NCBI RefSeq assembly: GCF_040947875.1
Contig: NZ_JBFRXN010000002.1
Location: 2,976,001 to 3,040,000 of the forward strand
Direction of reading: 5' to 3'
Length of the DNA: 64,000 bases
DNA from: Pseudomonas sp. MYb118
Lineage (GTDB): Bacteria > Pseudomonadota > Gammaproteobacteria > Pseudomonadales > Pseudomonadaceae
Part shown: positions 48,894 through 63,996 of the stretch, in pieces
Layout: each line of letters begins with the position of its first letter
Position numbering within the stretch: the stretch's first letter is position 1
The notes under the pieces: model-generated
The model's input: the letters and a program-made list of their open reading frames with translations, nothing else
The model's database searches: none
What the model was told of the DNA's origin: nothing
Translations under genes and position numbers: made by a program

Positions 48894-48959
48894 ATGCACG
48901 ATTTATGCAAAACAGCAATTGTCTTCGCATAAAAGATCAAGCACTATGCGCGATATGCA
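48894..48959. promoter_or_regulatory. Repeated ATGCA half-sites at the repressor gene start
   Basis: ATGCA or close variants recur at 48894, 48905, 48927 (reverse), 48946 and 48955, including the inverted pair TTTATGC (48902-48908) and GCATAAA (48927-48933). They resemble the ATGCAT array at the tailocin promoter and would let the repressor control its own gene. This is inferred from the shared motif. Confidence 0.5.
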
Positions 48960-49689
48960 AAAACGCAATGTTTCTACCGTATTAAGAGCACTGCTCGACC
49001 AGCACGGGATCTCCCCCACGGAGCTTCACCGTCGTACCGGCGTGCCTCAATCCACGCTGTCGCGCATTCTCAGCGGCAAGATCGTTGATCCTTCGGACAA
49101 GCACATCTCGAAGATCGCCGAGTATTTCGCCGTGAGTACCGACCAGTTGCGCGGGCGCGCGGATGTCGCCGTAAGCGTGGCAGCCGGGCGCGATGCAGTG
49201 CATTCGGAACTCAAGGACATAAGTCTGTGGGACGACGATACCCCCGTCGATGAAGATGAGGTGTCGGTCCCCTTTCTTCGCGAGGTTGAATTGGCAGCCG
49301 GATCAGGAAGATTCGTCATCGAAGAGAGCGAGCGCGCAAGCCTGCGCTTCGGCAAGCGCAGCCTGCGGCATAACGGCGTGCAGTTCGACCAGGCCAAATG
49401 CGTCACCGTGCGCGGCAACAGCATGTTGCCGGTGCTGCGGGACGGCGCGACTGTGGGCGTCAACGCTGGCAAGAGCGGCATCGGCGATATCGTCGACGGC
49501 GATCTTTATGCCATCAACCACAACGGCCAGTTGCGGGTAAAACAGTTGTATCGCCTGCCGACCGGCATTCGCCTGCGCAGCTTCAATCGTGACGAGCACC
49601 CGGACGAGGACTACAGCTTCCAGGAAATGCAGGAGGAGCAGATCGTTATCCTCGGCCACGTCTTCTGGTGGGGCATGTACGCCCGCTAA
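48946..49689 (+). CDS. Autocleavable XRE/S24 repressor (PrtR/CI-like) of the tailocin
   Basis: A 247-residue protein. The N-terminal XRE helix-turn-helix (STVLRALLDQHGISPTELHRRTGVPQSTLSRILSGKIVDPSDKHISKIAEYF, residues ~10-61) is followed by an S24 LexA-like domain. The self-cleavage Ala118-Gly119 is in ELAAGSG, the nucleophile is Ser159 in RGNSMLPVL, and the general base is Lys199. Activated RecA should trigger cleavage and so induce the tailocin after DNA damage. ATGs at 48946 and 48955 are both possible. No separate PrtN-type activator is seen. Confidence 0.9.
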   Translation: MRDMQKRNVSTVLRALLDQHGISPTELHRRTGVPQSTLSRILSGKIVDPSDKHISKIAEYFAVSTDQLRGRADVAVSVAAGRDAVHSELKDISLWDDDTPVDEDEVSVPFLREVELAAGSGRFVIEESERASLRFGKRSLRHNGVQFDQAKCVTVRGNSMLPVLRDGATVGVNAGKSGIGDIVDGDLYAINHNGQLRVKQLYRLPTGIRLRSFNRDEHPDEDYSFQEMQEEQIVILGHVFWWGMYAR

Positions 49690-50208: not shown

Positions 50209-50409
50209 ATGTTGAAAGATTGCCGATGTGGGCATTGCCAAAGACTTCTCGCCCGGATGGCCGGGCGTGCAGAGCTCCAGATCAAATGTTCCCGCTGCGG
50301 GACGTTGAATCATGTGAGGGCCACGTGCCCCGAGCGATCGCCTGTGAGCGACACAACCGCTGCTTCGGCGGCAACAACCCCTCTCTCTCACTCACAGGTG
50401 AAATCATGA
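50209..50409 (+). CDS. Com-like zinc-finger translational regulator
   Basis: A 66-residue protein resembling phage Mu Com. Four cysteines in C7-x2-C10-x16-C27-x2-C30 (CGHC and CSRC) form a zinc ribbon, then comes a Ser/Thr/Ala-rich tail. GAGGA precedes the ATG by eight bases. In Mu, Com binds RNA ahead of mom, opens a hairpin and switches on mom translation. Here the stop overlaps the next gene's ATG (ATGA), and the tail-coding bases form one arm of a stem over that gene's ribosome site. The RNA-binding role is inferred by homology. Confidence 0.75.
   Translation: MLKDCRCGHCQRLLARMAGRAELQIKCSRCGTLNHVRATCPERSPVSDTTAASAATTPLSHSQVKS
50338..50401 (+). promoter_or_regulatory. Shine-Dalgarno-sequestering RNA hairpin at the com/DUF642 junction
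   Basis: TCGCCTGTGAG (50338-50348) pairs with CTCACAGGTGA (50391-50401) over 11 bases with one G-U wobble. The right arm contains the whole AGGTGA ribosome site of the downstream gene, five bases before its ATG. The loop holds a second hairpin GCTGC-TTCG-GCGGC (50359-50372) with a very stable UUCG tetraloop. The position equals the translation-inhibitor stem-loop of Mu mom. Confidence 0.65.
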
Positions 50410-50969
50410 CTATCTGGAAAAAACTCACGGCGCCATTGCTGGCCGCCACTGTACTGCTGGGCTGCGCGGCCAATGCCTTTGCGGCCAACTTGCTGGTCAA
50501 TGGCAGTTTTGAACAACCAGGCTGCTCCATTGCCGCCGGGTGCGTGCTCGACACGCCGGCAGAGGCCAACTTCATTACCGGCTGGACGACCTTCCTGTCG
50601 GGGGTCGAGTACGTCAGGAGTGCGTCGGACGGCTTGGTGGGGGTCGACCTGGCCAACTATGTCTACGGCAACGGTGGTGGCATTCAGCAGAACTTCGCCA
50701 CCGCCGTTGGCGCCAAGTACCGGGTGACCTTTAGCCTGGGCAACTCGCAATATGCCAATCGGACCGGCGAGGGGGTGGTGCAACTCAAGGTTGCGGGCCA
50801 AACCGCTTCGTTCGATACCCCGAGTGCAAAGGGTGTGGGCGCCACTTGGGCCACCTACACCTACGACTTCACCGCGGTGACCGCGCAAACGACCCTGGCG
50901 TTTTCCAACGAACAGAATCCGTACGCCCACTTCGCTTTCCTCGACAACGTCATTGTCGAGCGTCTGTAA
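50406..50969 (+). CDS. Secreted DUF642-like protein at the head of the tailocin operon
   Basis: A 187-residue exported protein. The N-terminus MTIWKKLTAPLLAATVLLGCAANAFA fits either signal peptidase I (AFA) or a lipobox (LLGC). The mature domain starts ANLLVNGSFEQPG, the hallmark of DUF642/galactose-binding-like beta-sandwich proteins, and ends FAFLDNVIVERL. Many Thr/Gly/Asn beta-strand repeats are seen, with a C-x7-C pair near the start. The family binds polysaccharides in plants and bacteria; here a role in binding cell-surface glycan is only a guess. It is not a structural tail gene of known R-pyocins. Confidence 0.7.
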   Translation: MTIWKKLTAPLLAATVLLGCAANAFAANLLVNGSFEQPGCSIAAGCVLDTPAEANFITGWTTFLSGVEYVRSASDGLVGVDLANYVYGNGGGIQQNFATAVGAKYRVTFSLGNSQYANRTGEGVVQLKVAGQTASFDTPSAKGVGATWATYTYDFTAVTAQTTLAFSNEQNPYAHFAFLDNVIVERL

Positions 50970-51069: not shown

Positions 51070-51417
51070 ATGACAAACGAGCAACAAGCGTTGTTGGACT
51101 TGCCGATCTGGCTGGTCATCGTGCTCGCCTTGCTGGGTGGGGTGTCCGGCGAGATGTGGCGCGCCGACAAGGAGGGCGCTCGCGGCTGGTCGTTGCTGCG
51201 GCGCCTGGCCCTGCGCTCCGGCGCCTGCATGATCTGCGGGGTGTCGGCGTTGATGCTGCTGTATGCGGCCGGCCTGTCGATCTGGGTGGCCGGGGCGTTC
51301 GGTTGCCTCACCGCGATGGCCGGTGCCGACGTCGCCATCGGCCTCTACGAGCGCTGGGCGGCCAGGCGCATCGGCGTCTGCGAAATCCCCCCGCCGGACT
51401 CCCGTCCGGATCAGTAA
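51070..51417 (+). CDS. Phage holin
   Basis: A 115-residue protein with three hydrophobic segments (LPIWLVIVLALLGGVSG, ALRSGACMICGVSALMLLYAAG and IWVAGAFGCLTAMAGADVAIGLY) and charged ends, typical of the R-pyocin holin family. A GGGAGGCG ribosome site precedes the ATG. It would permeabilise the inner membrane to free the endolysin encoded at the far end of the cluster. Confidence 0.85.
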   Translation: MTNEQQALLDLPIWLVIVLALLGGVSGEMWRADKEGARGWSLLRRLALRSGACMICGVSALMLLYAAGLSIWVAGAFGCLTAMAGADVAIGLYERWAARRIGVCEIPPPDSRPDQ

Positions 51418-51965: not shown

Positions 51966-52577
51966 ATGTTCGACGCGCTTTTACGCCAGCAACTGGGCCC
52001 GTTGATCGAGCGTCTGGCCGAGATGGAGACGGAACTCGAAGACCTCTACCGGCGCACCGACAGCCTGTGTCGGGTTGGCGTGTGCCAGGAGGTCGATGCC
52101 GCCAGCAACACCTGCAAGGTCAGCCACGGTGACCTGCTGACCCCGGCGATCCGTTTCTTCAACCCCAGCGCCGGTGCGCAGAGCGAATCGCGCATTCCCT
52201 CGGTGGGTGAGCAATGCCTGTTGCTCAACCATGGTGGCGGTGATGGCGGTGCGCAATCGGTGGCGTTGTTCGGGCTCAACGGCAGCCAGTTTCCACCGGC
52301 CTCGACCCAGGCTTCGCTGACGCGTCGCCTCTATGTCGACGGCACGGAAAGTGGCTACGACGACGCCCTGCATGCCTTTCACTGGAACAACGGCCCGGCG
52401 GCGTTCAACGGCTCTCGCGAAGCGCTGGCGTTGAATCTCGGCCCGGCGAGCCTGTTGATCACGCCTCAGGTCATCGAACTGCAACTGGGCGCGGTCGGCT
52501 TGCGACTCGATGCTTCCGGTGTGCACCTGAGCGGCCCGGTGGTGGATCACCAGGGTCGCGTCATCAGTACCGCATAG
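51966..52577 (+). CDS. Baseplate assembly protein V (gpV, spike)
   Basis: This 203-residue protein follows the P2 gpV pattern. A helical N-terminus (LLRQQLGPLIERLAEMETELEDLYRRTDSL) is followed by an OB fold (RVGVCQEVDAASNTCKVSHGDLLTPAIRFFNPSAG, VGEQCLLLNHGGG) and a short beta-helix tip (LNLGPASLLITPQVIELQLGAVGLRLDASGVHLSG). It forms the membrane-piercing spike. No HxH iron motif is seen at the tip in this copy. Confidence 0.88.
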   Translation: MFDALLRQQLGPLIERLAEMETELEDLYRRTDSLCRVGVCQEVDAASNTCKVSHGDLLTPAIRFFNPSAGAQSESRIPSVGEQCLLLNHGGGDGGAQSVALFGLNGSQFPPASTQASLTRRLYVDGTESGYDDALHAFHWNNGPAAFNGSREALALNLGPASLLITPQVIELQLGAVGLRLDASGVHLSGPVVDHQGRVISTA

Positions 52578-52587
52578 AGAGTCTCCC

Positions 52588-52920
52588 ATGATCGGAATCG
52601 ACAGAAACACCGGGGCGGCGGTCGACGACTGGCCGCAATTCGTACAGCGCGCCACCCGGGCGCTGACCACACCCCTGGGCACGCGGCAGAAGCGTCCGCT
52701 GTATGGCTCGCTGATCCCCGAGCTGCTGGGTCGCAACCTCGGCGACGACCTGTTGCTGCTCGCCCAGAGCTACGCCGCCCAGGCCTTTTACAACGAACAA
52801 AACGGTATCGCCGACTTCCAGCCGCAGGCCATCGTCGCCAGCCGCCGTTGCGCCGGCCTGGTGTTGCGCTTTGCCGGCACCTGGAACAACCGCATGCAAA
52901 CTTTCGAGGTGGTGACATGA
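52588..52920 (+). CDS. Baseplate wedge protein W (gp25-like)
   Basis: A 110-residue gp25/lysozyme-like fold protein starting MIGIDRNTGAAVDDWPQFVQRATRALTTPLGTRQKRPLYGSLIPELLG, the family pattern for P2 gpW. The stop overlaps the gpJ start by ATGA. Confidence 0.9.
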   Translation: MIGIDRNTGAAVDDWPQFVQRATRALTTPLGTRQKRPLYGSLIPELLGRNLGDDLLLLAQSYAAQAFYNEQNGIADFQPQAIVASRRCAGLVLRFAGTWNNRMQTFEVVT

Positions 52921-53912
52921 GCATGTTGATCCCCGGCCAGAACCAGTTGGCCGAACCGTCGATCGTCACCGTGGAAGCGTTCGAAGAACTGCTCGCCGAG
53001 TTCAAGACGTTTGTCGTCGAGTACGTCGGCAGTCGTTCGCCAGAGACGGCGGTGAAGCTTGCGGCCAGCCTGGACAACGAAAGCGAATTGCTGACCCTGG
53101 CGCTTGAAGCCTTTTGTGTGCGCCTGCAACTGCACGAGCGCAAATATAACGCCCGCATCAAGCAGATGCTGGCCTGGTGGGCGACCGGCAGCAACCTGGA
53201 CGCCCGCCTGGCCGACATGGGCCTGGAACGGCAACTGCTGGACCCTGGCGACCCGCTGGCGTTTCCACCGATTGCGCCGGTGTACGAAAGCGACGATGAC
53301 GCGCGCTTGCGCTATTACCTGGCACCCCATGCACCGGCGGCCGGTTCGCGCATGCAGTATCGCCGCGAGGTGTTCACCCTTGGCGAACGCCCGGCGGTGA
53401 AGGTCGAGGCCCTGGCGTCAGGTGAAGTGACGGTGACTTACAGTTTCGCCCCGGACGGTTTTGCCGCGCAGGTCAAGGACGGCAATGGACGCCGCACGGC
53501 ACCGGGCGAAGTGATGGTCACGGTGCTGGCGCGCGACGGTGATGGCTCGGCCTCCGAGGCCTTGCTCGATGGTGTGCGCGAGCACTTTGCCCGGCCCGAT
53601 GTGCGGCCGGAGACCGACCGCGTCACGGTGCAGGGCGCGCACATCCATAACTACCGGATCCGCGTGGTGGCGAAGATCAACGCCGGTCCCGATTCGGGGC
53701 TGACCAAGACCGCTGCGCAACGGCAATTGCAGGCGTATGCGCAGAGCTGTCATCGCCTGGAAGGGCGGGTCGATCCGAGCTGGATCGACTACACGCTGCA
53801 CAACGCCGGCGCGGTCCAACTGGATATTCTCGAACCGCTGGAGCCGATCGTCACCACGGCGTTCGAAGCGCCGTACTGCACCGCGGTCGAGGTCGAGGTG
53901 CTGACGTTATGA
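52917..53912 (+). CDS. Baseplate assembly protein J
   Basis: This 331-residue protein resembles P2 gpJ, a main part of the baseplate wedge. Seen are SIVTVEAFEELLAEFKTFV near the start, ARLADMGLERQLLDP, VMVTVLARDGDGSASEALLDGVREHF and EVEVLTL at the end. It is coupled to gpW before it and to gpI after it, each by four bases. Confidence 0.92.
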   Translation: MSMLIPGQNQLAEPSIVTVEAFEELLAEFKTFVVEYVGSRSPETAVKLAASLDNESELLTLALEAFCVRLQLHERKYNARIKQMLAWWATGSNLDARLADMGLERQLLDPGDPLAFPPIAPVYESDDDARLRYYLAPHAPAAGSRMQYRREVFTLGERPAVKVEALASGEVTVTYSFAPDGFAAQVKDGNGRRTAPGEVMVTVLARDGDGSASEALLDGVREHFARPDVRPETDRVTVQGAHIHNYRIRVVAKINAGPDSGLTKTAAQRQLQAYAQSCHRLEGRVDPSWIDYTLHNAGAVQLDILEPLEPIVTTAFEAPYCTAVEVEVLTL

Positions 53913-54544
53913 GCGACGACCCAACCCGCTCGACGCTGCTGCCGGCCAACAGTTCGCCGCTGGAACAAGCCCTGGATATCGGCTTTGGCGCATTGCTTGA
54001 ACGCATCGCACCGCCGTTTCCCGAGTTGATGAACCCGGCCACGACGCCACTGGCGTTCCTGCCGTATCTGGGGGCGGATCGCGGTGTCAGCGAATGGAGT
54101 TCCGCGGCGGATGAAGCAGAAAAACGCCTGACCGTCGAACTGGCCTGGCCGACGGCGCGCCAGGCCGGCACCCGCCAGGCCCTGGAAAACGCCGCGAAGG
54201 GCCTGCGCCTGCGGCCCGAAGTGCGGGCGTGGTACGAGCAGGTGCCAGTGGGCCAGCCGTACAGTTTTTCTGTGCGGGCGTTCACCGAGCAACCCTACAG
54301 CGCCGAAATCGACGCCCGTCTCGACCAACGCCTGGCGCAGGCCAAGAGCGAGCGCGACCTGTTGTCGGTGTCGGTGGGCCTGAGCGCCTTCGGCAGCCAC
54401 GTCATCGGTGCGGCGACGGTGTGCGGCGAGCTGACCAGCATTTATCCCATCGTTATCGAAGGGCTCGAGGTGTCGGGGCAGGCCTTCGCGGCCGGCGCGC
54501 TCTACACCGTCGAAACCTCCATCATTTATCCACAGGGGTCCTGA
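53909..54544 (+). CDS. Tail protein I
   Basis: This 211-residue protein resembles P2 gpI, which links baseplate and fibre. It starts LLPANSSPLEQALDIGFGALLERIAPPFPELMNP and contains LPYLGADRGVSEWSSAADEAEKR, the typical start of the family. The fibre gene follows with no gap. Confidence 0.9.
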   Translation: MSDDPTRSTLLPANSSPLEQALDIGFGALLERIAPPFPELMNPATTPLAFLPYLGADRGVSEWSSAADEAEKRLTVELAWPTARQAGTRQALENAAKGLRLRPEVRAWYEQVPVGQPYSFSVRAFTEQPYSAEIDARLDQRLAQAKSERDLLSVSVGLSAFGSHVIGAATVCGELTSIYPIVIEGLEVSGQAFAAGALYTVETSIIYPQGS

Positions 54545-56335
54545 ATGGCCGACTATTACACCCTGCTCACCAACGCAGGAATTGCCTACGAAACCGCCTG
54601 CAAGGCGGCGGGCGTGCCGATCAAGCTGTCGCAGATTTCGGTCGGCGACGGTGGTGGCAGCGTCTACAACCCGGCCGCCACTGCCACCGCGCTCAAGCGC
54701 GAAGTCTGGCGCGGCCCGATCAACGCCCTGTTCCAGGACGAAAAGAACCCCAGCTGGCTGCTCGCCGAAGTGACCATCCCGCCGGAAGACGGTGGCTGGT
54801 ACGTGCGTGAAGCCGGGCTGTGGACCGACACCGGCATCCTCTATGCCATCGTCAAATACCCGGAATCGTTCAAGCCGGTGCTGGCGACCTCGGGCTCGGG
54901 CAAGGAGTTCTACATCCGCTCGATTTTCGAGACCAGCAATGCGGCGAACGTCACCCTGCTGATCGACGACACCGTGGTCAAGGCGACCCGGGCGTGGGTG
55001 ATGAGCTACCTCGCCGAGGAACTGGCCAAGCTCGACGGCAAGCAATCGGTGCGCGTGGCGACCACGGACAACATCGTGCTCAGCGGCGCACAGCAGGTCG
55101 ATGGCGTGGCGGTGGTGGCCGGGCAGCGGGTGTTGGTCAGGGCGCAGACGACAGCCAGGGACAATGGCCTTTATGTCGCGGCCAACGGCGCATGGTTGCG
55201 GGCAGCGGACGCCAACACCAACGCCAAGGTGACCGCCAACCTGACGGTGATGGTCGAGGAGGGCGCGATCAACGGCGACTCGCTATGGCACCTGGTGACC
55301 AACGGGCCGATTGAGCTGGGCACGACGGCGCTGGTGTTTGAAATGCTCGCGGGGCGCACCGGGATTCAGGCGGGGACGTACAAGAGCCTGACGGTGGACA
55401 AGTATGGCCGCGCCACGGCCGGCTCCAACCCGGACACCCTGGCGGGTTTTGGCATCAAGGACTCTTACACCAAAGCTGAAATCGAGGCGTTGATTGCGCA
55501 GGCGTCGGCATTGCCAGTTGGCAGCATCGTCGGATTACCGGTGAACAAGATCCCGCCCGGTTTTCTTGAAATCGACGGGAGTGTGCAGAGCGTTGCCACC
55601 TACCCGGATCTCGCGGCTCTTCTGGGCGCGGCGTTCAACCAGGGCAACGAAGGTGCAGGTTACTTCCGTCTACCTGATTCGCGAGGCGAGTTTCTGCGGG
55701 GTTGGGATCATGGGCGAGGGGTGGATATTGGGCGCATTCTTGGTACTAGACAAACCGATCAACTCCAAGGCCACCGACATTCAAGAAATCTCACTGGCGA
55801 ACGTGAGCGAGCCTACAAAGATGGCACAGGGTACGCGGACAATGCTGTCGGTTCGCTAGGTTCAGCCGTAGTTAGCGCAAGTTCTGGCGATCCCATCCCC
55901 GACGGATCTAATGGTGCCGTACGTGTAGGCACTGAAACCCGCCCACGCAACCTGGCCGTGATGTGGTGCATCAAGGCGTGGAATGCTCCGATTAACCAGG
56001 GAAACATCGACGTTGCAGCACTTGAGACCCAAGTGCTGGCGTTTAACAACAAAATCTCTCAACTTTTCAAAAACCCTAGCGACGTCAAGGCGTCACGAGC
56101 GATCAACGTCACTTACACCAACAGTTCAGCGCTGCCTATTCTTGTCAACGTGGCTTTTGTCGGTACTGCTCCTAACCAGACCGCAATTATAGTTCTCGAT
56201 GGTGTCAGCATCTATGGCTCTTCCTTTCCGAGCGCAGGGCTCAGTCTGGCGGTGTCTGCAATTGTTCCTCCTGGATCGACCTATAAGGTTCCGGCTGGCA
56301 ATTACACCATTACCAATTGGGTGGAGATATGGTGA
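54545..56335 (+). CDS. Tail fibre protein
   Basis: A 596-residue fibre. Residues 1-~155 are the baseplate-attaching N-terminal domain (MADYYTLLTNAGIAYETACKAAGVPIKLSQISVGDG). Residues ~160-290 are a repeat-like shaft, and ~322-470 form a phage tail-collar domain (VGSIVGLPVNKIPPGFLEIDGS, GYFRLPDSRGEFLRGWDHGRG, ETRPRNLAVMWCIKAW). The last ~120 residues have no recognised domain and probably bind the receptor. From about 55,700 the DNA is clearly less GC-rich than the rest of the cluster, a sign of an exchanged tip. Confidence 0.92.
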   Translation: MADYYTLLTNAGIAYETACKAAGVPIKLSQISVGDGGGSVYNPAATATALKREVWRGPINALFQDEKNPSWLLAEVTIPPEDGGWYVREAGLWTDTGILYAIVKYPESFKPVLATSGSGKEFYIRSIFETSNAANVTLLIDDTVVKATRAWVMSYLAEELAKLDGKQSVRVATTDNIVLSGAQQVDGVAVVAGQRVLVRAQTTARDNGLYVAANGAWLRAADANTNAKVTANLTVMVEEGAINGDSLWHLVTNGPIELGTTALVFEMLAGRTGIQAGTYKSLTVDKYGRATAGSNPDTLAGFGIKDSYTKAEIEALIAQASALPVGSIVGLPVNKIPPGFLEIDGSVQSVATYPDLAALLGAAFNQGNEGAGYFRLPDSRGEFLRGWDHGRGVDIGRILGTRQTDQLQGHRHSRNLTGERERAYKDGTGYADNAVGSLGSAVVSASSGDPIPDGSNGAVRVGTETRPRNLAVMWCIKAWNAPINQGNIDVAALETQVLAFNNKISQLFKNPSDVKASRAINVTYTNSSALPILVNVAFVGTAPNQTAIIVLDGVSIYGSSFPSAGLSLAVSAIVPPGSTYKVPAGNYTITNWVEIW

Positions 56336-56835
56336 TGTATTACTTCATTGATGACGCTGGAAGTGTCTATGCTTTTGTTTGCGAAACGGATGCACCTGAA
56401 GGTCTTTCGCCGATAAGCGAGTCTGATGCATTGGCACTCGCTGGCGGTCCATCCTCCAAACCTGACTACCCTGCCTTGATTGCAGCAGAGCGTTATAAGC
56501 GCGAGGGGGCAGGTGTTCCAGTCAATGACTTTTTGATAGATACCTCCCGTGACAGTCAAGCTTTGCTTGCGGGCGCTGCGGTCTCGGCGATCATGGACCC
56601 GTCTTACAGATGTAACTGGAAAACCAGTAACGGTTTCGTCGAGTTGACGTCGATCGAGCTTTTGAGCATTTCGACCGCTGTACGCAATCACGTTCAAGCG
56701 TGTTTTGACCGAGAGTTAGCTTTGCTACGTGTCGTTGAAGCAGGAGAGTACAGCGATCACATGTTGTTGGAAGGCTGGCCCGAGGTAACGTCCGGCCTCG
56801 TTACGAGTCCCGGTCATAAGCCATATCCCCAATAA
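56335..56835 (+). CDS. Tail fibre assembly chaperone (DUF4376-like)
   Basis: A 166-residue protein; ATG 56335 is eight bases after GGAG and shares its A with the fibre stop (TGATG). The C-terminal part (ALIAAERYKREGAGVPVNDFLIDTSRDSQALLAGAAVSAIMDPSYRCNWKTSNGFVELTSIELLSISTAVRNHVQACFDRELALL) resembles the DUF4376 fibre-assembly domain. The DNA is low in GC like the fibre tip, so the two have probably been moved as one unit. Confidence 0.85.
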   Translation: MYYFIDDAGSVYAFVCETDAPEGLSPISESDALALAGGPSSKPDYPALIAAERYKREGAGVPVNDFLIDTSRDSQALLAGAAVSAIMDPSYRCNWKTSNGFVELTSIELLSISTAVRNHVQACFDRELALLRVVEAGEYSDHMLLEGWPEVTSGLVTSPGHKPYPQ

Positions 56836-56863
56836 ACGCCCCGCTCCGACGGGGCGTTTTCTT
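56834..56863 (+). terminator. Intrinsic terminator directly after the chaperone
   Basis: AAACGCCCCG-CTCCGA-CGGGGCGTTT with four T residues overlaps the TAA stop of the chaperone. Confidence 0.9.
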
Positions 56864-56894
56864 TCCCGAAATCCAACCCGTACACAACCCCAAC

Positions 56895-56918
56895 AGCCCC
56901 TTGCCCAAGGGGCTTTTT
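56895..56918 (+). terminator. Second intrinsic terminator between chaperone and the sheath group
   Basis: AGCCCCTTG-CCC-AAGGGGCTTTTT lies only 32 bases after the first terminator and 20 bases before the next start codon. No sigma-70 promoter is visible between it and the next gene. Confidence 0.9.
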
Positions 56919-56937
56919 CATTCATGGAGAAACACCC

Positions 56938-57147
56938 ATGGCAGAACGCCAAACCTACACCGTACTGCGTCCATTCCCCACCGGGGGTGGTCACTGGTCG
57001 AGCATCGGCCAGCAACTGAGCCTGCTGGGCGTCGAGGCCAGCGCGTTGCTGGGCGCCGGTCGCCTGGAGCATGCAAAAACCGAAGCCGCCGAATCGGCTT
57101 CTCCATCCACCGCGGCGAAAAAAGCCGCTGCCAAGAAGGCTGAATAA
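56938..57147 (+). CDS. Small tailocin protein of unknown function (69 aa)
   Basis: MAERQTYTVLRPFPTGGGHWSSIGQQLSLLGVEASALLGAGRLEHA is followed by an Ala/Lys tail (STAAKKAAAKKAE) that resembles histone-like repeats and is very basic. A GGAG ribosome site precedes the ATG. Small genes of this kind lie before the sheath gene in P2-like clusters. No function is known to me. Confidence 0.75.
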   Translation: MAERQTYTVLRPFPTGGGHWSSIGQQLSLLGVEASALLGAGRLEHAKTEAAESASPSTAAKKAAAKKAE

Positions 57148-57149
57148 CC

Positions 57150-58316
57150 ATGGCTGAGGTTTTGAACTTCGAGCACAACGGCATTACCGTCAATGCCACC
57201 GAATCCCCCGAGGCCATGGGTGGCCTGGGTGACAACGTCATCGGTCTGATCGGCACCGCGCCGAAGGCCGACCTGCTGATTCCGCGCAATGCGCCGTTTC
57301 GCATCAACAGCTTCACCCCCCAGGCGCTGCTCGACCCGACGGGCGCCGAGGAAGGCACGCTGTTTCACGCGGTGTTCCAGATCCTGAAAGTGGTCAAGGT
57401 GCCGGTCTACGTGGTCATCGTCGAAGAGGGCGAGACCGCCGCGGACACGCTGAACAATGTCATCGGCGGCATCGACCCGCTGACCGGGCGCAAGCTCGGC
57501 CTGGCCGCACTGGGCGGCGTGGCCGAAGACCTGACCATCATCGGCGCGCCGGGCTTCACCGCGACCAAGGCCGTGGCCGGTGAGTTTGCCGCGTTCGGCA
57601 AGCGCATCAAGGCCCGTGTGGTGCTCGACGGCAAGGATGTCGCGGTGGCCGACCAAGTGACCTACAGCCAGGAACTGGGCGGCGCAGAGCTGGGTTTCGA
57701 CCGCTGCCTGCTGGTGCACAACATGCCGTCGGTGTACTCCAAGGCGGCGAAGAAAAACGTCTTCCTGTCGCCGTCCAGCCTGGCCATCGCCGCGCTGGCC
57801 AAGGTCAAGCAATGGGAAAGCCCGGGCAACCAGGTGACCTTCGCCGAGGACGTGTCGCGCGTCGTCGAATACAACATCCTCGACACCTCCACCGAGGGCG
57901 ACCTGCTCAACCGCTACGGCATCAGCTACTACGCCCGCACCATCCTCGGCGGCTTCTCGCTGCTGGGTAACCGTTCGGTCACCGGCAAGTTCATCAGCTA
58001 CGTCGGCCTGGAAGACGCAATCAGCCGCAAGCTGGTCAAGGCCGGCCAGAAAGCCATGGCCAAGAACCTGACCAAGTCGTTCATGGACCAGGAGGTCAAG
58101 CGCATCAACGACTGGCTGCAAACCCTGGTAGCCGACGAAACCATCCCCGGCGGCAGCGTGTACCTGCACCCGGAACTCAACAGCGTCGAGAAGTACAAGA
58201 ACGGCACCTGGTACGTGGTCATCGACTACGGCCGCTACGCGCCGAACGAACACATGATCTATCAACTCAACGCCCGTGACGAAATCATCGAGCAGTTCCT
58301 GGAGGACGTTCTCTAA
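57150..58316 (+). CDS. Tail sheath protein (gpFI)
   Basis: This 388-residue contractile sheath subunit has the pattern NVIGLIGTAPKADLLIPRNAPFRI, SPSSLAIAALAKVKQWESPGNQVTFAEDVSR and SFMDQEVKRINDWLQTLVADETIPGGSVYLHPELN, as in P2 FI and R-pyocin sheath. It starts two bases after the small gene and shares one base with the tube start. Confidence 0.95.
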   Translation: MAEVLNFEHNGITVNATESPEAMGGLGDNVIGLIGTAPKADLLIPRNAPFRINSFTPQALLDPTGAEEGTLFHAVFQILKVVKVPVYVVIVEEGETAADTLNNVIGGIDPLTGRKLGLAALGGVAEDLTIIGAPGFTATKAVAGEFAAFGKRIKARVVLDGKDVAVADQVTYSQELGGAELGFDRCLLVHNMPSVYSKAAKKNVFLSPSSLAIAALAKVKQWESPGNQVTFAEDVSRVVEYNILDTSTEGDLLNRYGISYYARTILGGFSLLGNRSVTGKFISYVGLEDAISRKLVKAGQKAMAKNLTKSFMDQEVKRINDWLQTLVADETIPGGSVYLHPELNSVEKYKNGTWYVVIDYGRYAPNEHMIYQLNARDEIIEQFLEDVL

Positions 58317-58822
58317 TGTTTACCAACCGCGTAAGACAGGCCATCGCGGCCACCCTGCAAGGCCTGCCGTTGTCGGCGACGGTGGAAGAGTTCACCCCGC
58401 CCAAGATCGAGTTCGAGATGGAGGCTCAGGTGGGTGGGCGCTTCATCGGCGAAGAAATGGCCAAGAGCGGCAAGGCGCTCACGGCGACCTTGAAACTGCA
58501 AGGCATGGGCCCGGAAATCATGCTCGCCCTGGGCGTCAGTCTGGGCGACGACATTTTGCTCAATGTCCGTGAGGCCGGGCAGGACCAGGACGGCAATACC
58601 TGGTTCACCTACCACACGGTGGGCGGCAAGCTGAAATCCCTGGCGGAAACGTTGATGAAGATGAACGAAAAACCGACCACCACCCTGGAGCTGTCCTGCC
58701 GCACCTACACGCGCCAGGAGAACGGCATCCCGGTGATCGACATCGACGTGCGCACCCAGAAGTTCGTACTCAACGGCGTCGACATCCTCGGTGATGCGCG
58801 GCGGGCGGTGTTGTTGCCTTAA
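58316..58822 (+). CDS. Tail tube protein (gpFII)
   Basis: A 168-residue tube subunit with PLSATVEEFTPPKIEFEMEAQVGGRFIGEEMAKSGKALTATLKLQG and ENGIPVIDIDVRTQKFVLNGVDI, the FII family pattern. It overlaps the sheath stop by one base. Confidence 0.95.
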   Translation: MFTNRVRQAIAATLQGLPLSATVEEFTPPKIEFEMEAQVGGRFIGEEMAKSGKALTATLKLQGMGPEIMLALGVSLGDDILLNVREAGQDQDGNTWFTYHTVGGKLKSLAETLMKMNEKPTTTLELSCRTYTRQENGIPVIDIDVRTQKFVLNGVDILGDARRAVLLP

Positions 58823-58846
58823 TCCTCAGCACAAACACGGACCAAC

Positions 58847-58937
58847 CTGTGGGAGCGAGCCTGCTCGCGATGGCGCAGTGTCAGACGCCTTCAATGGTGG
58901 CTGATCGACCGCTATCGCGAGCAGGCTCGCTCCCACA
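58847..58937. repeat. Paired REP element inside the tailocin operon (GAGCCTGCTCGCG subtype)
   Basis: Inverted CTGTGGGAGCGAGCCTGCTC copies flank ~40 bases between the tube gene and gene E. It fills most of the 177-base gap. Confidence 0.92.
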
Positions 58938-58999
58938 AGGGATCTTCCTACTAAGGATCCCCCATAAGGTTCGGTTCTTCTTCACTCAGGAATTCCCCC

Positions 59000-59569
59000 A
59001 TGACATGGACACCCCCAACCCACACCCTGCTGGCGCCAATCACCGCCGACGACGGCACGCAGATCGAACAGATCCCCCTCAAACCGCTGTTCTACGCCGC
59101 ACAAAAAGAAGCCCTGGCCCGCGCCGGCGATGATGAAGACGAGCAGTTCTTCGAACTGGCATTGCTGGCCACCGGGCTGTCGGTCAAGGAGCTCGACCAG
59201 CTCAAGCGCCCGGACTACGTGAGCATTGCCCACTACGTACACGAAATGTCGACCTTGCCCGCTTCGCACTTCCTTGAAGTCGATGGCGAACTCGACCCCG
59301 ATGAAGTGAGCCTGTTGCAACCGCTCGCCGTGGCCGGTCGCACCCTGACCACGCTGACCCTGGAAATGCCGGTGCTGCGTGCCACCAAGGCAATGAAAAA
59401 ACTCAAGACCGCCAAGGAACGTGCGGAATTCATCACCGCCCATTGCACCGGCCTGATGCTGCCGGACCTGGCCAACCTGAGCGTGCCGGACTGGACGCAA
59501 TTACAGGGGCGTATCGACGATTTTTTAAACCAACCGGCGGCCTTCTTTCGCAGCGTGACATCGAAGTGA
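59000..59569 (+). CDS. Tail assembly chaperone, short form (gpE-like)
   Basis: A 189-residue protein (LLAPITADDGTQIEQIPLKPLFYAAQKEALARAGDDEDEQFFELALLATGLSVKELDQLKRPDYV) of the phage tail assembly chaperone family. It lies between tube and tape measure, the conserved place for E/E'. AGGAA precedes the ATG. A slippery site at 59521-59530 lets some ribosomes change to the -1 frame. Confidence 0.88.
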   Translation: MTWTPPTHTLLAPITADDGTQIEQIPLKPLFYAAQKEALARAGDDEDEQFFELALLATGLSVKELDQLKRPDYVSIAHYVHEMSTLPASHFLEVDGELDPDEVSLLQPLAVAGRTLTTLTLEMPVLRATKAMKKLKTAKERAEFITAHCTGLMLPDLANLSVPDWTQLQGRIDDFLNQPAAFFRSVTSK

Positions 59570-59691
59570 TCCTCGATGTGGTGCCGCTCATTTATCCGGT
59601 GAGTGAGGCACAGATTCTGGAGTGGGACGCCGACAAGGCATTGCGCCGCTATGAGATTGCGCTGAGCCGCCTGGGTGTGAAAGAGGAGTAG
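59527..59691 (+). CDS. E' extension made by -1 programmed frameshift (E+E' protein)
   Basis: In the -1 frame after T-TTT-TTA (59521-59527) or the overlapping T-TTA-AAC (59524-59530), the reading continues KPTGGLLSQRDIEVILDVVPLIYPVSEAQILEWDADKALRRYEIALSRLGVKEE. It ends at TAG 59689-59691, five bases before the tape-measure ATG. The joined product would be ~230 residues. The mechanism matches P2 E/E' and lambda G/GT. The E' part is protein-like and has no start codon of its own. Confidence 0.85.
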   Translation, partial: KPTGGLLSQRDIEVILDVVPLIYPVSEAQILEWDADKALRRYEIALSRLGVKEE

Positions 59692-59696
59692 GGAGG

Positions 59697-61295
59697 ATGG
59701 CAGACAGCAAGTATTCGATGAGCGAGGCGACGCTCGACAGTTTTGGTTTTTCGACGTTTAACGTCGCTTCAGTGCCTTATGGCCTGAGCGGTTTTTCCGG
59801 CGCCATGGCCCAGCTCGGCGCGGCGTTGAACGAGGCCAGCCTGGACATTCGCCTGTTGACGGTGGAGCAGGGCAAGCTCGGCGAAGTGATCTCATCGCTG
59901 ACCGCCGCGTTGTTCGCTCCGCGCTCGCAACTGAGGACGTTTTCCCAGGCACCTGGGGCGCGTGATGAGTCGCCGTTCAGGCTCAATGTCGAGGTGCAAC
60001 CGCGGCCTTCGCTCGAGTCGCCGCGTCTGATGGCGCATCAGGCGGATAATCACACCTGTCAGTGTGAGTTGAAATCGCCTTTGCAGGTGTTGGTTGAGCA
60101 ACAGATTTTACAGGCCTCAGCGCAACCAATTGCCCCACCCACCGATTCGTCGCCCGCTTCTGTAAACCCGAACGAGGCGAGCCTGGCACGGCTGAAGAGC
60201 GCGGTGACCCCGGATTTTTCCAGCGCGATCGACAAGGTGAGTTCGTTCGCGGAAGAACACCCCAAGCTGGCAGTGGTTGGCGGCTTGCTTTATTCCGCGG
60301 GGGCCAGGCTGGTCGAAAAGGTGATCGACGAGGCGTACTCCAAAGCCGCTGAGCGCATCCTGGGCGGGAGTACCGGCAAGGAGCAGCCTGCCGAGAATGC
60401 TGAGGAAGGCAAAGGTAAATACAAGGGCACAAGCAAAGGCAAAAAGAAAAAGGGAGCTCGTTCCAAATCTCCCTCGAGTCCTGACGACTGCGCACCCTGT
60501 GTGGGGAGTCATCCCGAGAAGTGCACGGGAGCCCTCCAGCCGGATTGCTGCGACTGTTGCAGCCTCACGCCGAGCCACAAGACGGATCAGGTCAAGTACA
60601 AGTTGTTGGAAGGGCACGACAGGATACCGCTCGCTCCCTTGCCAGAACCGCGGCTGAAACTTACTTCAGCAACGGCAGATACTCAGGCGGTGACCAGCAC
60701 ACTTGGTCTGAATCAGGCGCAGAACCTGGTCGCTCCTGACAACCCGGCGAAGACCGGCTCTCTGCTTGGCAAGGCAGCAAAAGCTGTATCCATTGTGGAT
60801 AAGACAGTGGCGCCCCTGAGGATGGTCGGCGCCGCAATCGACATTACCCAAGGCATCGCCAACGGTGACACCAAGGCCGTGGTTTCTTCTGCCGGTAGCC
60901 TGGTCGGCTCCACCGCCGGGGCCGCAGCAGGCGCGGCCATCGGCACGATGATTTTCCCCGGAGTCGGCACCGCCATCGGTGGCCTGGTCGGAGGGCTGGC
61001 AGGTTCCGAAGTGGGCGCCATGCTCGGCGAAAAACTGTTTGGCCTGGTCGACCGCCTGCGCACACCCGACCAAGTCAGCAAAGACCTGACGACGGCGGCT
61101 GCACCGCCCGGCGCGCCCATCAACTTCGCCCCGTCGATCCAGGTCACCTGCCCCAACGCCGACAACGCCGAGCAGATCCGCAACGTGGTCGCACAGCAGT
61201 TGCAGGCGCAATTTCACGGGGAGTTCGTGCCCTTGATGAATCACAACGCCCTCGCCACACGACGCGACGCGGCCCTGACAGATGGAGGTGTGTAA
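59697..61295 (+). CDS. Tail tape measure protein
   Basis: This 532-residue protein's identity comes mainly from position between E' and U. The N-terminus is helical (YGLSGFSGAMAQLGAALNEASLDIRLLTVEQGKLGEVISSL). Residues ~235-300 are unusual: a Lys/Gly-rich stretch (EEGKGKYKGTSKGKKKKGARSK) and then nine cysteines (DDCAPCVGSHPEKCTGALQPDCCDCCS, counting those just outside). A glycine-zipper hydrophobic region follows at ~400-460 (SLVGSTAGAAAGAAIGTMIFPGVGTAIGGLVGGLAGSEVGAML). P2 gpT is longer, so a shorter tail is possible. Confidence 0.8.
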   Translation: MADSKYSMSEATLDSFGFSTFNVASVPYGLSGFSGAMAQLGAALNEASLDIRLLTVEQGKLGEVISSLTAALFAPRSQLRTFSQAPGARDESPFRLNVEVQPRPSLESPRLMAHQADNHTCQCELKSPLQVLVEQQILQASAQPIAPPTDSSPASVNPNEASLARLKSAVTPDFSSAIDKVSSFAEEHPKLAVVGGLLYSAGARLVEKVIDEAYSKAAERILGGSTGKEQPAENAEEGKGKYKGTSKGKKKKGARSKSPSSPDDCAPCVGSHPEKCTGALQPDCCDCCSLTPSHKTDQVKYKLLEGHDRIPLAPLPEPRLKLTSATADTQAVTSTLGLNQAQNLVAPDNPAKTGSLLGKAAKAVSIVDKTVAPLRMVGAAIDITQGIANGDTKAVVSSAGSLVGSTAGAAAGAAIGTMIFPGVGTAIGGLVGGLAGSEVGAMLGEKLFGLVDRLRTPDQVSKDLTTAAAPPGAPINFAPSIQVTCPNADNAEQIRNVVAQQLQAQFHGEFVPLMNHNALATRRDAALTDGGV

Positions 61296-61678
61296 TGCGT
61301 CAGCAAATGGCACTGGGCAGTTTTATCTTTGGCCTGTCACGCAACTTTGCCTACAGCGGCATCGTGCGCGTGTCGGATGGTGGCTGGGCCGACATCAATG
61401 TGGTGATGGGCAAGCCGAAATCCATGCAGGCGGGGCAAAAGGCACAGACGCTGAAGATCAGCGGCAAGTCGATGTACGCAGTGGCCATGGAGCGGCTCGA
61501 TGAGCTGCGGGTGCTCCAGGCGTTGCGCGTGCCGCTGCCGATGGTCGATGGCATCGGTACGCACTGGGGGCTGTGGCGCATCAACGCGGTGACGGAAACC
61601 CAAAGCGCCGTCATCGACGATGGCACGGCACTGGTGATTGATTGGTCGGTGGATTTGTCGGAGTTCATCCATGCGTAG
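61295..61678 (+). CDS. Tail protein U
   Basis: This 127-residue protein matches P2 gpU: LGSFIFGLSRNFAYSGIVRVSDGGWADINVVMGKPKSMQAGQKAQTLKISGKSMYAVAMERLDELR. It ends the tail tube. It overlaps the tape measure by one base and gene X by eight bases. Confidence 0.92.
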   Translation: MRQQMALGSFIFGLSRNFAYSGIVRVSDGGWADINVVMGKPKSMQAGQKAQTLKISGKSMYAVAMERLDELRVLQALRVPLPMVDGIGTHWGLWRINAVTETQSAVIDDGTALVIDWSVDLSEFIHA

Positions 61679-61883
61679 AGTACGAAGTGTGGCCGGTGAC
61701 TCGGTGAATCTGTTGCTTTACCGGGAAACCGGGCGTTGCGATGACGCGCTCGAAGAGGCGTTGTGGCGCCTCAACCCGAAGCTGCAGGAACAGCGCGCGG
61801 TGTTGCCGGCGGGTATCTGGGTGGTGTTGCCGGAACTGCAAGCGCGCTTGCCTGCGAGTGCGCCGGTTTCGGCCTGGGATTAA
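61671..61883 (+). CDS. Tail protein X (LysM-like)
   Basis: This 70-residue protein has the short gpX pattern VAGDSVNLLLYRETGRCDDALEEALWRLNPKLQEQRAVLPAGIWVVLPEL. The ATG at 61671 lies inside the end of gene U. Confidence 0.9.
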   Translation: MRRVRSVAGDSVNLLLYRETGRCDDALEEALWRLNPKLQEQRAVLPAGIWVVLPELQARLPASAPVSAWD

Positions 61884-61892
61884 GGAGGGCTC

Positions 61893-62921
61893 ATGGCACA
61901 GGGTTTTACGCCTGCGGTAGAAATCTATGGGGCCAACGCGGCCCTGATCAACCAGCGGCTGATCAGTTGGAGTCACATCGACGCCGCTGGCATCGAGTCC
62001 GACCAACTGACGCTGGTGCTCAATCTGGAAGGGCTCGAAGGCCTTCCCAGCCTCGAAGGCAAAATCGGCCTGCGTGTCGGCTACCTGGAATCGGGGCTGA
62101 TCGACAAAGGCCAGTTCGTGGTCACACGGCGCACGCCGACGCTGTTTCCCCTGCGCCTGACCCTGGTGGCCACGGCGGCGCCGTTCAGTGCGGCGGACCA
62201 GACCGGGTTCAAGCAGCGCCGCTCGGTCAGTCATGGTCCGACCACCCTCGGTGCGCTGTTTCGCGAGCTGACCTCGCGGCACGGTTTTTCGCCGCGGGTG
62301 GCCTCGGACCTGGCGCTGATCAAAATTGCCCATGTCGATCAATCCAACGAAACCGACATGGGTTTCCTGACCCGCCTGGCGCGCATTCACGACGCTGTCG
62401 CCAAGCCGTTCAACGAGCTGTATGTGCTGGCGCGCAAGGGCCAGGCCAAATCACTGTCGGGCAAGGTGCTGCCCAACATTCAATTGTCGGTGACGACCAA
62501 CAATCGTCCGGGCGATCACGCCTTCACCTCGGCCACGCTGGATGAAACCAGCCGGGCCAAGTATCAGGGCTGCAAGGTGCGTTGGTGGGACGCGGCGGCC
62601 GGCAGGATGAGGGTCGAGGAGAGCGGCATGGCGCCGTTCAAGACCGTCCGCCAGAACTATCACAGCGCTGACGAGGCGCGGGCGGCGGGTGAAGGCGAGG
62701 TGCGCCGGATGATGCGTGAAGCCTTGAAGGTGGCGATCGAATGCCCCGGCCATCCAGGGTTGGCAGCCGAAGGCGTGGTGTTGCTCGACAGCACCTGGCC
62801 GGACTTCATGCGCGGACGCTGGTCGATCGACAAGGTCACCGCCAGCGGTAGTCGAGAACAAAGCTACCGCTGCACGATTGCCGCGACTTGCCTGGATGCC
62901 CGCTCGGAGCCAGCAGGATGA
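61893..62921 (+). CDS. Late control protein D (baseplate hub, gpD)
   Basis: This 342-residue protein is like P2 gpD/T4 gp27-type hubs: AQGFTPAVEIYGANAALINQRLISWSHIDAAGIESDQLTLVLNLEG and HGFSPRVASDLALIKIAHVDQSNETDMGFLTRLARIHDAVAKPFNELYVLARKGQAKS. The stop overlaps the endolysin start. Confidence 0.92.
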   Translation: MAQGFTPAVEIYGANAALINQRLISWSHIDAAGIESDQLTLVLNLEGLEGLPSLEGKIGLRVGYLESGLIDKGQFVVTRRTPTLFPLRLTLVATAAPFSAADQTGFKQRRSVSHGPTTLGALFRELTSRHGFSPRVASDLALIKIAHVDQSNETDMGFLTRLARIHDAVAKPFNELYVLARKGQAKSLSGKVLPNIQLSVTTNNRPGDHAFTSATLDETSRAKYQGCKVRWWDAAAGRMRVEESGMAPFKTVRQNYHSADEARAAGEGEVRRMMREALKVAIECPGHPGLAAEGVVLLDSTWPDFMRGRWSIDKVTASGSREQSYRCTIAATCLDARSEPAG

Positions 62922-63481
62922 ACATCACACAAACCCAACTGCAAACGATCATGCCCGACGCCCGCGCTCAAGCGGGCGTTTTTGTCTCTGCGCTCAATGC
63001 CGCCATGGCTCGCCACGACATCAGCACGCCCAGGCGCATGGCCGCCTTCATCGCGCAGATCGGCCATGAGTCCGGGCAACTGCATTACCTGCGCGAGCTG
63101 GGCAGCGAGCAGTACTTGAGCAAGTACGACACCGGCCCCTTGGCCCTGCGCCTGGGCAATACCGCCGCCGCGGATGGCGACGGGCAGAAGTACCGGGGTC
63201 GTGGCCTGATCCAGATCACCGGCCGGCGCAACTACCAACAATGCAGCGTGGCCCTGTTCGGCGATGAGCGTCTGCTGGCGCGTCCCGAGCTGCTCGAACA
63301 GGCGCAATGGGCCGCCGAGTCCGCCGCCTGGTATTGGGCAAAAAACGGCCTCAATGAGCTGGCCGATCGCGATCTGTTCAACAGCATCACCCGTCGTATC
63401 AACGGCGGCCTGAACGGGCTGCAGAACCGCCTGCAATTGTGGGCGCGGGCGAGGGCGGTGTTATGCCAGCCTTCGGCCTGA
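62918..63481 (+). CDS. Endolysin, GH19 chitinase-like family
   Basis: A 187-residue glycoside hydrolase family 19 endolysin. The catalytic Glu is probably in FIAQIGHESGQLHYLREL, with KYRGRGLIQITGRRNYQQC and NSITRRINGGLNGLQNRLQLW, the family signatures. It hydrolyses peptidoglycan once the holin has opened the inner membrane. No signal peptide is present, in line with holin-dependent export. Confidence 0.93.
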   Translation: MNITQTQLQTIMPDARAQAGVFVSALNAAMARHDISTPRRMAAFIAQIGHESGQLHYLRELGSEQYLSKYDTGPLALRLGNTAAADGDGQKYRGRGLIQITGRRNYQQCSVALFGDERLLARPELLEQAQWAAESAAWYWAKNGLNELADRDLFNSITRRINGGLNGLQNRLQLWARARAVLCQPSA

Positions 63482-63996
63482 TGCCGCTGGCCTGGCGGGT
63501 GCTTGGCATTGCGCTGGTGGTGGCGGTGCTTGCGGCTGGACCGGCGGCGCTGGCCTGGCGTTATCAGGACGCGCACTACGCCCGGCAACTGGCAGAACAG
63601 GCCCGGCTGCACGGCGAAACGCTGAACCAACTGACCCAGGCTGCGGCCGCCCGCCAACAGGCCGAGCAGGATAAACGCCAGGCACTGGAGCAGCGCCTGG
63701 CGAGCAGCGAACAAACCCATTACCGAGCGCTGAGCGATGTCCAACGTGATCAGGATCGCCTGCGCGATCGCCTTGCCACTGCTGATGTGCGCCTGTCAGT
63801 CCTCCTCGAGGCCGCTGACGCCGCCTCAGGCTGTGCCATGCCTGCCGCCGCCGGCTCCGGCGGCGTGGTTCATGGCCCCGTACGCGCCCGACTTGACCCG
63901 GCGCATGCTCAACGAATTATCGCCATCACCGATGCCGGCGACCGCGCCCTGATCGCGTTGCAGGCGTGCCAGGCGTATGTCCGGGCCCTGCACTAA
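63463..63996 (+). CDS. Rz-like inner-membrane spanin
   Basis: A 177-residue protein with an N-terminal membrane anchor (LAWRVLGIALVVAVLAAGPAALAW) and a long periplasmic coiled coil (ARQLAEQARLHGETLNQLTQAAAARQQAEQDKRQALEQRLASSEQ). This is the i-spanin layout. It joins with the lipoprotein encoded inside it to fuse the membranes in lysis. ATGs at 63463 and 63481 both work; the second overlaps the endolysin stop. Confidence 0.88.
   Translation: MPAFGLMPLAWRVLGIALVVAVLAAGPAALAWRYQDAHYARQLAEQARLHGETLNQLTQAAAARQQAEQDKRQALEQRLASSEQTHYRALSDVQRDQDRLRDRLATADVRLSVLLEAADAASGCAMPAAAGSGGVVHGPVRARLDPAHAQRIIAITDAGDRALIALQACQAYVRALH
63737..63952 (+). CDS. Rz1-like outer-membrane spanin lipoprotein, nested in Rz
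   Basis: A 71-residue lipoprotein read in another frame wholly within Rz. The signal MSNVIRIACAIALPLLMCAC (lipobox at MCAC) is followed by a proline-rich part (SSSRPLTPPQAVPCLPPPAPAAW). Nested Rz/Rz1 genes are the standard spanin arrangement, so this overlapping frame is real and not a shadow. Confidence 0.85.
   Translation: MSNVIRIACAIALPLLMCACQSSSRPLTPPQAVPCLPPPAPAAWFMAPYAPDLTRRMLNELSPSPMPATAP

Follow-up and report, generated by a model that had tools for sequence, protein, structure and literature searches.

The junction between com and a DUF642 gene in a Pseudomonas tailocin-type cluster is most probably an RNA switch operated by a protein of the phage Mu Com type, with Com acting in trans on a small regulon. 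We give this reading a probability of about 0.7. The junction lies in a 64,000-nucleotide stretch of DNA from Pseudomonas sp. MYb118, the whole of which is termed the window. In the proposed mechanism, the ribosome site of the DUF642 gene would pair with an arm shared by a Com-type hairpin, resulting in low default translation. Com protein would bind the hairpins HP1/HP2, whereby the arm would be withdrawn and the ribosome site freed, i.e., Com would activate. The same RNA element appears to be placed ahead of many cargo genes in Pseudomonas tailocins and prophages, where Com would act on it in trans and thereby govern a small regulon. The computed support consists of family membership, hairpins, covariation, sequestration of the Shine-Dalgarno sequence (SD) and com-less copies of the element.

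The features of the window are given with their evidence in brackets:

48919..49689, + strand, S24/HTH phage-type repressor upstream of com (PF00717 64.9 bits, PF01381 44.1 bits)
50209..50409, + strand, com, encoding a 66-aa four-cysteine zinc-ribbon protein (PF10122, Zn_ribbon_Com, 63.5 bits, cut-off 22.9; phrog_6417 'translational regulator' 65.1 bits)
50318..50330, + strand, HP1, first Com-type hairpin in the com mRNA, GGGC-CACGU-GCCC (sequence; HP1 class in 76/87 com tails)
50338..50351, + strand, HP2, second Com-type hairpin, UCGC-CUGUGA-GCGA, CC(N)3GAG, C-G closed (Com-target motif, PMC6483171)
50338..50348, + strand, anti-SD arm of the inhibitory stem, within HP2 (fold, arm pairing)
50359..50372, + strand, HP3, UUCG-capped hairpin inside the stem loop (inspection; covaries in relatives as helix 4)
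50391..50401, + strand, SD arm of the inhibitory stem (fold, arm pairing)
50396..50401, + strand, Shine-Dalgarno AGGUGA of the DUF642 gene (sequence)
50406..50409, + strand, ATGA overlap of the com stop and the DUF642 start (sequence)
50406..50969, + strand, DUF642 protein, 187 aa, with an N-terminal signal peptide by inspection (PF04862 54.3 bits, cut-off 27)
51070..51417, + strand, holin (PF16085 182.3 bits)
51966..63996, + strand, contractile-tail type genes (baseplate V, baseplate J, Tail_P2_I, tail fibre, tube FII, gpD-like), GH19 lysozyme and Rz-like protein (Pfam)

Judged from gene matches, the cluster appears to be of the tailocin type, with contractile-tail genes, a repressor and lysis genes. 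The R-type tailocin parts found were repressor, holin, baseplate, fibre, tube and GH19; the gpD and Rz matches score under the Pfam cut-off. There was no Pfam match for 52588-52920 or 57150-58316, the latter being a sheath candidate by position alone. The initial annotation described a four-cysteine Com-like gene overlapping a DUF642-like gene by ATGA, and the PF10122 and PF04862 matches and the coordinates confirm this. The window Com belongs to PF10122, has the four cysteines and would as such bind zinc and its cognate RNA. The gene downstream of it is not mom (PF25680), since DUF642 was its sole Pfam match; a com-mom pair is present at another locus (L224). With the NCBIfam model choice-of-anchor C (TIGR04362) the DUF642 protein scored 85.7 bits, below the cut-off of 120.

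The gene order repressor-(com)-DUF642-holin is recurrent. Among the 39 com matches of the DUF642 class, assigned by text pattern within the redundant set of 237, 36 were in loci with a holin homologue, and 31 of those 36 loci had a repressor homologue as well. In the loci listed, the repressor homologue near DUF642 was about 89-97% identical to that of the window. All named relatives were from Pseudomonas.

The predicted model of the DUF642 protein is a jelly-roll (mean pLDDT 66.5, pTM 0.63), and the fold matches of this low-pLDDT model suggest that it may share its fold with the carbohydrate-binding modules CBM61, CBM4 and CBM36. No sequence relative was found among solved structures. The product is a secreted, probably sugar-binding protein; as first proposed, it may act at surfaces or on glycans and may be held back until late in induction.

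The inhibitory stem has 11 bp, one of them G-U, and encloses the entire SD of the DUF642 gene, with the UUCG-capped hairpin in its loop. This structure, noticed at the outset, was borne out both by the sequence and by RNAfold. The predicted probability of being unpaired was 0.05-0.06 for the SD and 0.71-0.73 for the start codon, which is outside the stem and mostly open. The minimum-energy fold included the stem in segments of 101, 121 and 371 nt, and in a 131-nt segment both stem arms were paired elsewhere; for HP3, RNAfold shifts the register, which leaves a loop of 3 nt. The window fold energy was unexceptional, as equally stable shuffles numbered 11/200 for the 101-nt segment, 38/200 for the 131-nt segment and 13/100 for the 371-nt segment. 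Folding energy was consequently dropped as evidence, and the case for the stem rests on comparison. Rfam gave no family at gathering score at the com/DUF642 junction (E-value mode).

HP2 and the inhibitory stem are mutually exclusive because the anti-SD arm sits within HP2. The RNA may alternate between two folds, a reading which is our own and differs from Mu. Two features of a Mu-type Com switch were found in the window, i.e., a Com-target hairpin (HP2) near the target start and a predicted structure over the SD; a third would be a need for Com in target translation. The idea of a Mu-type switch over DUF642 is supported with respect to Com family, hairpin logic, SD sequestration and cognate-arm pairing; what departs from Mu is an arm that lies inside a Com-type hairpin and acts on the SD. 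The HP1 loop reads CACGU in the window, the commonest form being CACGA. This replacement of GA by GU occurs at 50318-50330 and in L134, and GA is implicated in Com binding by footprinting.

We collected 237 com matches and retained 87 tails of less than 90% identity, the other 150 being 90% redundant or short-tailed; com matches of G193, G196 and G396 were left out of the set, and 80 of 272 viral loci were kept. The criterion for HP1 was at least 4 bp, C-G closure and a loop of 5-6 nt with free letters. HP1 was found in 76, HP2 in 66 and both in 56 of the 87 non-redundant tails, counts which are inflated by kinship among loci, for hairpins HP1-HP3 that were defined after inspecting sequences; for the same reason p values overstate independence. 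Dinucleotide shuffles of the tails gave HP1 in 12.6%, HP2 in 11.8% and both in 1.2%, and synonymous resampling gave 28.9, 19.9, and 5.8%, respectively. In a motif-anchored test the three outer pairs were all formed in 59.7% of sites, compared to 19.5% (maximum 26.7%) when the 3' halves were permuted. Compensatory stem types included AGG/CCU, GGG/CCC, AGA/UCU, UCG/CGA, ACG/CGU, AUG/CAU, and CCG/CGG.

For alignment A1, filters on spacing and length left 45 of the 87 tails, and all of these except L145 were aligned, giving 44 loci. In these 44 loci 92.6% of cells were paired, with a covariation of 0.249 compared to 0.115 for shuffled and at most 0.101 for slid alignments. RNAalifold recovered HP1, HP2, and HP3 from A1 but missed the SD stem, because the 3' arm is misaligned by one base in many rows, and an arm-permutation test was used for this stem instead. 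The arm-to-SD duplex energy was -12.02 kcal/mol for cognate and -11.05 kcal/mol for non-cognate pairs (0/5000 permutations), and that of the window, at -21.2 kcal/mol, was the strongest of the 44. The initial annotation had set store by compensating changes in the stem arms of orthologous loci; the stems do covary, and cognate pairs beat permuted ones. An Rfam scan of 15 related com-bearing loci identified Proteo-phage-1 RNA (RF03044) elsewhere in two of them (L010 2729-2809 and L078 5099-5175) and nothing further.

We assessed occlusion of the ribosome site at 74 loci. The 54 loci bearing HP2 had a mean SD unpaired probability of 0.14 compared to 0.36 after shuffling upstream (p 1.8e-8), whereas the values were 0.26 and 0.37 for the 20 loci without HP2. 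For 51 Com targets the value was 0.131, against 0.384 for the starts of 94 other ORFs at these loci (p 1.2e-10); the control ORFs, which may recur between related loci, were called mechanically (150 aa or more, an ATG and an SD match) and are not annotated genes. Imposing HP2 alone had a weaker effect than expected, raising the value just to 0.27, with more than 0.6 in 4/54. Imposing HP1 and HP2 together at 31 loci raised it from 0.08 to 0.37, which is about background, with more than 0.5 in 4/31; in the window it reached 0.20. Plausibly, Com binding would thus lift a specific block without making an unusually open site. Little pairing between SD and HP2 was predicted for GH19, methylase and most GH5-type targets, which represent a second architecture. 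At methylase loci such as L019, L168, L173-L175, L188, and L191 an out-of-frame 262-aa ORF had been picked, and a nearby C5 methylase is the likelier target (compare L205); a few such mispicks remain in the occlusion and hairpin-imposing counts (74/54, 31, and 51 loci), but none in A1.

A covariance model built from the 44 aligned loci was run on 398 genomes of the genus with strict filters, scoring ten candidates per genome. In the window's own genome one element was found, at the com/DUF642 junction, and the regulon claim therefore rests on relatives. Element matches were found in 98 of the 398 genomes; all 98 were among the 119 that carry com, and none among the other 279. Thirty elements, in 18 genomes, were selected as lying away from PF10122 matches, and none of them has an intact com upstream. 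Remnants of com were found at some, i.e., a broken com of 38.6 bits in L279 and weak ones in L262 (two), L268, L274, and L277. In 15 of the 30, the com frame runs into a stop or disappears within the element. HP2 is nevertheless present in 27, HP1 in 24 and both in 22, in part by selection as the model scores these hairpins, and the SD arm is kept. The genes behind these elements are of the same classes as com-linked targets (B-lectin type, 110-aa proteins, the 213-aa secreted family, GH19, GH5, colicin-M type, and DUF642). Their distance to a com-target pair is about 1 kb in some cases, but 2.56 Mb in G061, 0.72 Mb in G199, and 0.85 Mb in G292, or the pair is on another contig. In L264 an element precedes DUF642 with no com in front, and com follows some 2.2 kb further downstream, ahead of an ORF of 82 aa.

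Since translation of com is unable to open com-less elements, trans action is indicated. The restriction of elements to com-carrying genomes together with the com-less elements suggests, at the level of genome sequence, that Com acts in trans on a regulon. In its wider form, which we also hold to be likely but with slightly less assurance, Com would be a translational activator of phage origin that acts in trans on a dispersed Pseudomonas regulon. A portable RNA cassette, roughly 100 nt long and with Com-binding hairpins that overlap the anti-SD arm, would stand ahead of genes for bacteriocins, lysozymes, DNA methylases and secreted cargo, DUF642 among them, in some cases far from any com.

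Translational coupling could by itself account for a stem of this kind, if ribosomes translating com melt it and reinitiate at the target with no role for Com protein. It fits with the anti-SD arm being in the com coding sequence and with the com stop overlapping or directly adjoining the start or SD of the target (ATGA in the window; in many relatives, a UAG within the SD). A published test also speaks against a need for Com protein: a premature stop in a plasmid com left levan formation from lscB unchanged in P. syringae PG4180.M6 (data not shown), and the authors stated that Com is not involved for lscB (PMC3899960; the available text does not give the stop position). The same text places com ahead of lscB as well as lscC and lists the element at a glycosyl hydrolase gene of PG4180.M6; in our reading, trans supply from other com copies may have masked an effect. 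Coupling alone is unlikely, as elements without an intact com upstream, half of them frame-broken, keep HP2 (27 of 30) and the SD arm, and the Com-target loop motif is retained. Still less probable is that the hairpins let Com control its own translation or com mRNA stability, with the effect on the target being secondary or repressive. HP1 and HP2 do lie within the com coding sequence, also where the target SD is unpaired with HP2 (GH19, methylases), but com-less elements stand directly before cargo genes with no com there to regulate, target SDs are occluded, and Mu Com is an activator in the accessible text of PMC6483171. Conserved Com tail residues (S-P-x-S-D, shared by many tails among the matches listed) plus chance pairing, with no RNA switch, would suit the unexceptional window fold energy but is highly improbable, given that synonymous resampling yields both hairpins in 5.8% of cases compared to the 56/87 observed, that stem types are compensatory, and that hairpins persist where the com frame is lost.

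A trans-acting switch may also be lost by its targets. Seven of 15 DUF642 relatives have com and the element, and eight have no com match. Seven of these eight had no covariance-model match at E 1; the remaining one, L036, was marginal (E 0.67) and has an apparent relict SD arm. The SD unpaired probability was 0.03-0.44 in the seven relatives with com, two of which have open SDs (L033 0.32, L046 0.44), and 0.11-0.42 in seven com-less relatives with an SD match, which is a weak contrast. DUF642 can therefore, as these loci suggest, be independent of the switch.

Of the 398 genus genomes 119 have a PF10122 match, compared to 5 of 369 drawn from the class at E 0.001 (the window's own included, three of the five over the cut-off). 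The search for com beside genes other than mom that had been proposed yielded many cargo classes (bacteriocins, lysozyme, methylases, DUF642). The ATGA overlap holds for the window but not as a general rule, as the com-target spacing is often about 3 to 15 nt among the matches listed. Small proteins some 100-120 aa long, with N-terminal sequences such as MNAVKVGKHF or MEPVKVGAKF (L003, L013, L023, L066, and others), are among the commonest Com targets, accounting by text pattern for 36 of the 237 redundant matches; two were scanned and had no Pfam match. A secreted 213-aa family with the motif SWNLARD is also Com-linked (L086, L132, L150, L183, L210); 10 of its 13 matches were in loci with repressor and holin homologues, and the one protein scanned had no Pfam match. 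A 320-aa target recurs in L007, L010, L128, and L199, that of L007 matching DUF6242 and, weakly, a beta-propeller. Tandem com-cargo cassettes were observed in L140 (G362), L190 (G385), and L262 (G096), where some later copies keep the RNA element with com truncated or missing. In other members of the class, L285 (G621) and L286 (G658) have com with the same hairpin plan, ahead of genes that are adenine-methylase-like by inspection.

The pairing of com and DUF642 is one of many com-cargo pairs, and the linkage is already reported in the available text of PMC6240691 and PMC3899960. The RNA element of Com outside Mu and the com-less targets appear to be new, neither having been found in the open-access literature searched. 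In what is available of PMC6240691, a 2018 review, the role of com before Pseudomonas bacteriocins and other tailocin cargo is called unexplored; the element with its two-state prediction makes the question testable, and com-less copies and natural losses add direct handles. If the reading is true, a phage mechanism confined to one operon would widen into a general layer of post-transcriptional control over bacteriocin and cargo deployment.

Several known systems resemble the window. Pseudomonas phage DVM-2008 (host Q8r1-96; EU982300) has the order prtR - Com - Orf4 - hol. The likeness is one of gene order alone, with Orf4 being 214 aa by coordinates, and the part of the annotation at hand gives no regulation for Orf4. 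In P. syringae, com forms part of an element of 500 bp that stands ahead of genes for levansucrase and glycosyl hydrolase (PMC3899960); the region upstream is reported to be indispensable, with expression raised by the gene's first 48 nt (PMC3973379). As far as these texts are available, this system shares with the window com and a conserved sequence that extends into the beginning of unrelated genes downstream. Unlike our reading, the lscB/C element is described as a promoter element, and the word hairpin occurs 0 times in the accessible text of PMC3899960. According to the available part of PMC6240691, some 90% of the L-type bacteriocin genes known from species other than P. aeruginosa have a PF10122 gene in front, and other tailocin cargo may have one too. 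The window, with a PF10122 gene directly ahead of cargo as for llpA, is a further instance; that part describes no RNA element and does not name DUF642.

The closest likeness is to com-mom of Mu, for which we rely on the accessible text of PMC6483171. There the Com target is a hairpin whose loop, closed by C-G, carries CC(N)2-3GAG, and the mom site, AUGC-CUGCGA-GCAU, is beside an inhibitory stem containing the GUG start. Shared with the window are a zinc protein of the Com family, a CC(N)3GAG hexaloop on a 4-bp C-G-closed stem in the com 3' region, an inhibitory stem on the downstream start signals, and overlapping genes. In contrast to Mu, the target in the window is DUF642 and not mom, the inhibitory arm lies within a Com-type hairpin and pairs with the SD, most relatives have two tandem Com-type hairpins, and relatives have com-less copies of the element at other genes.
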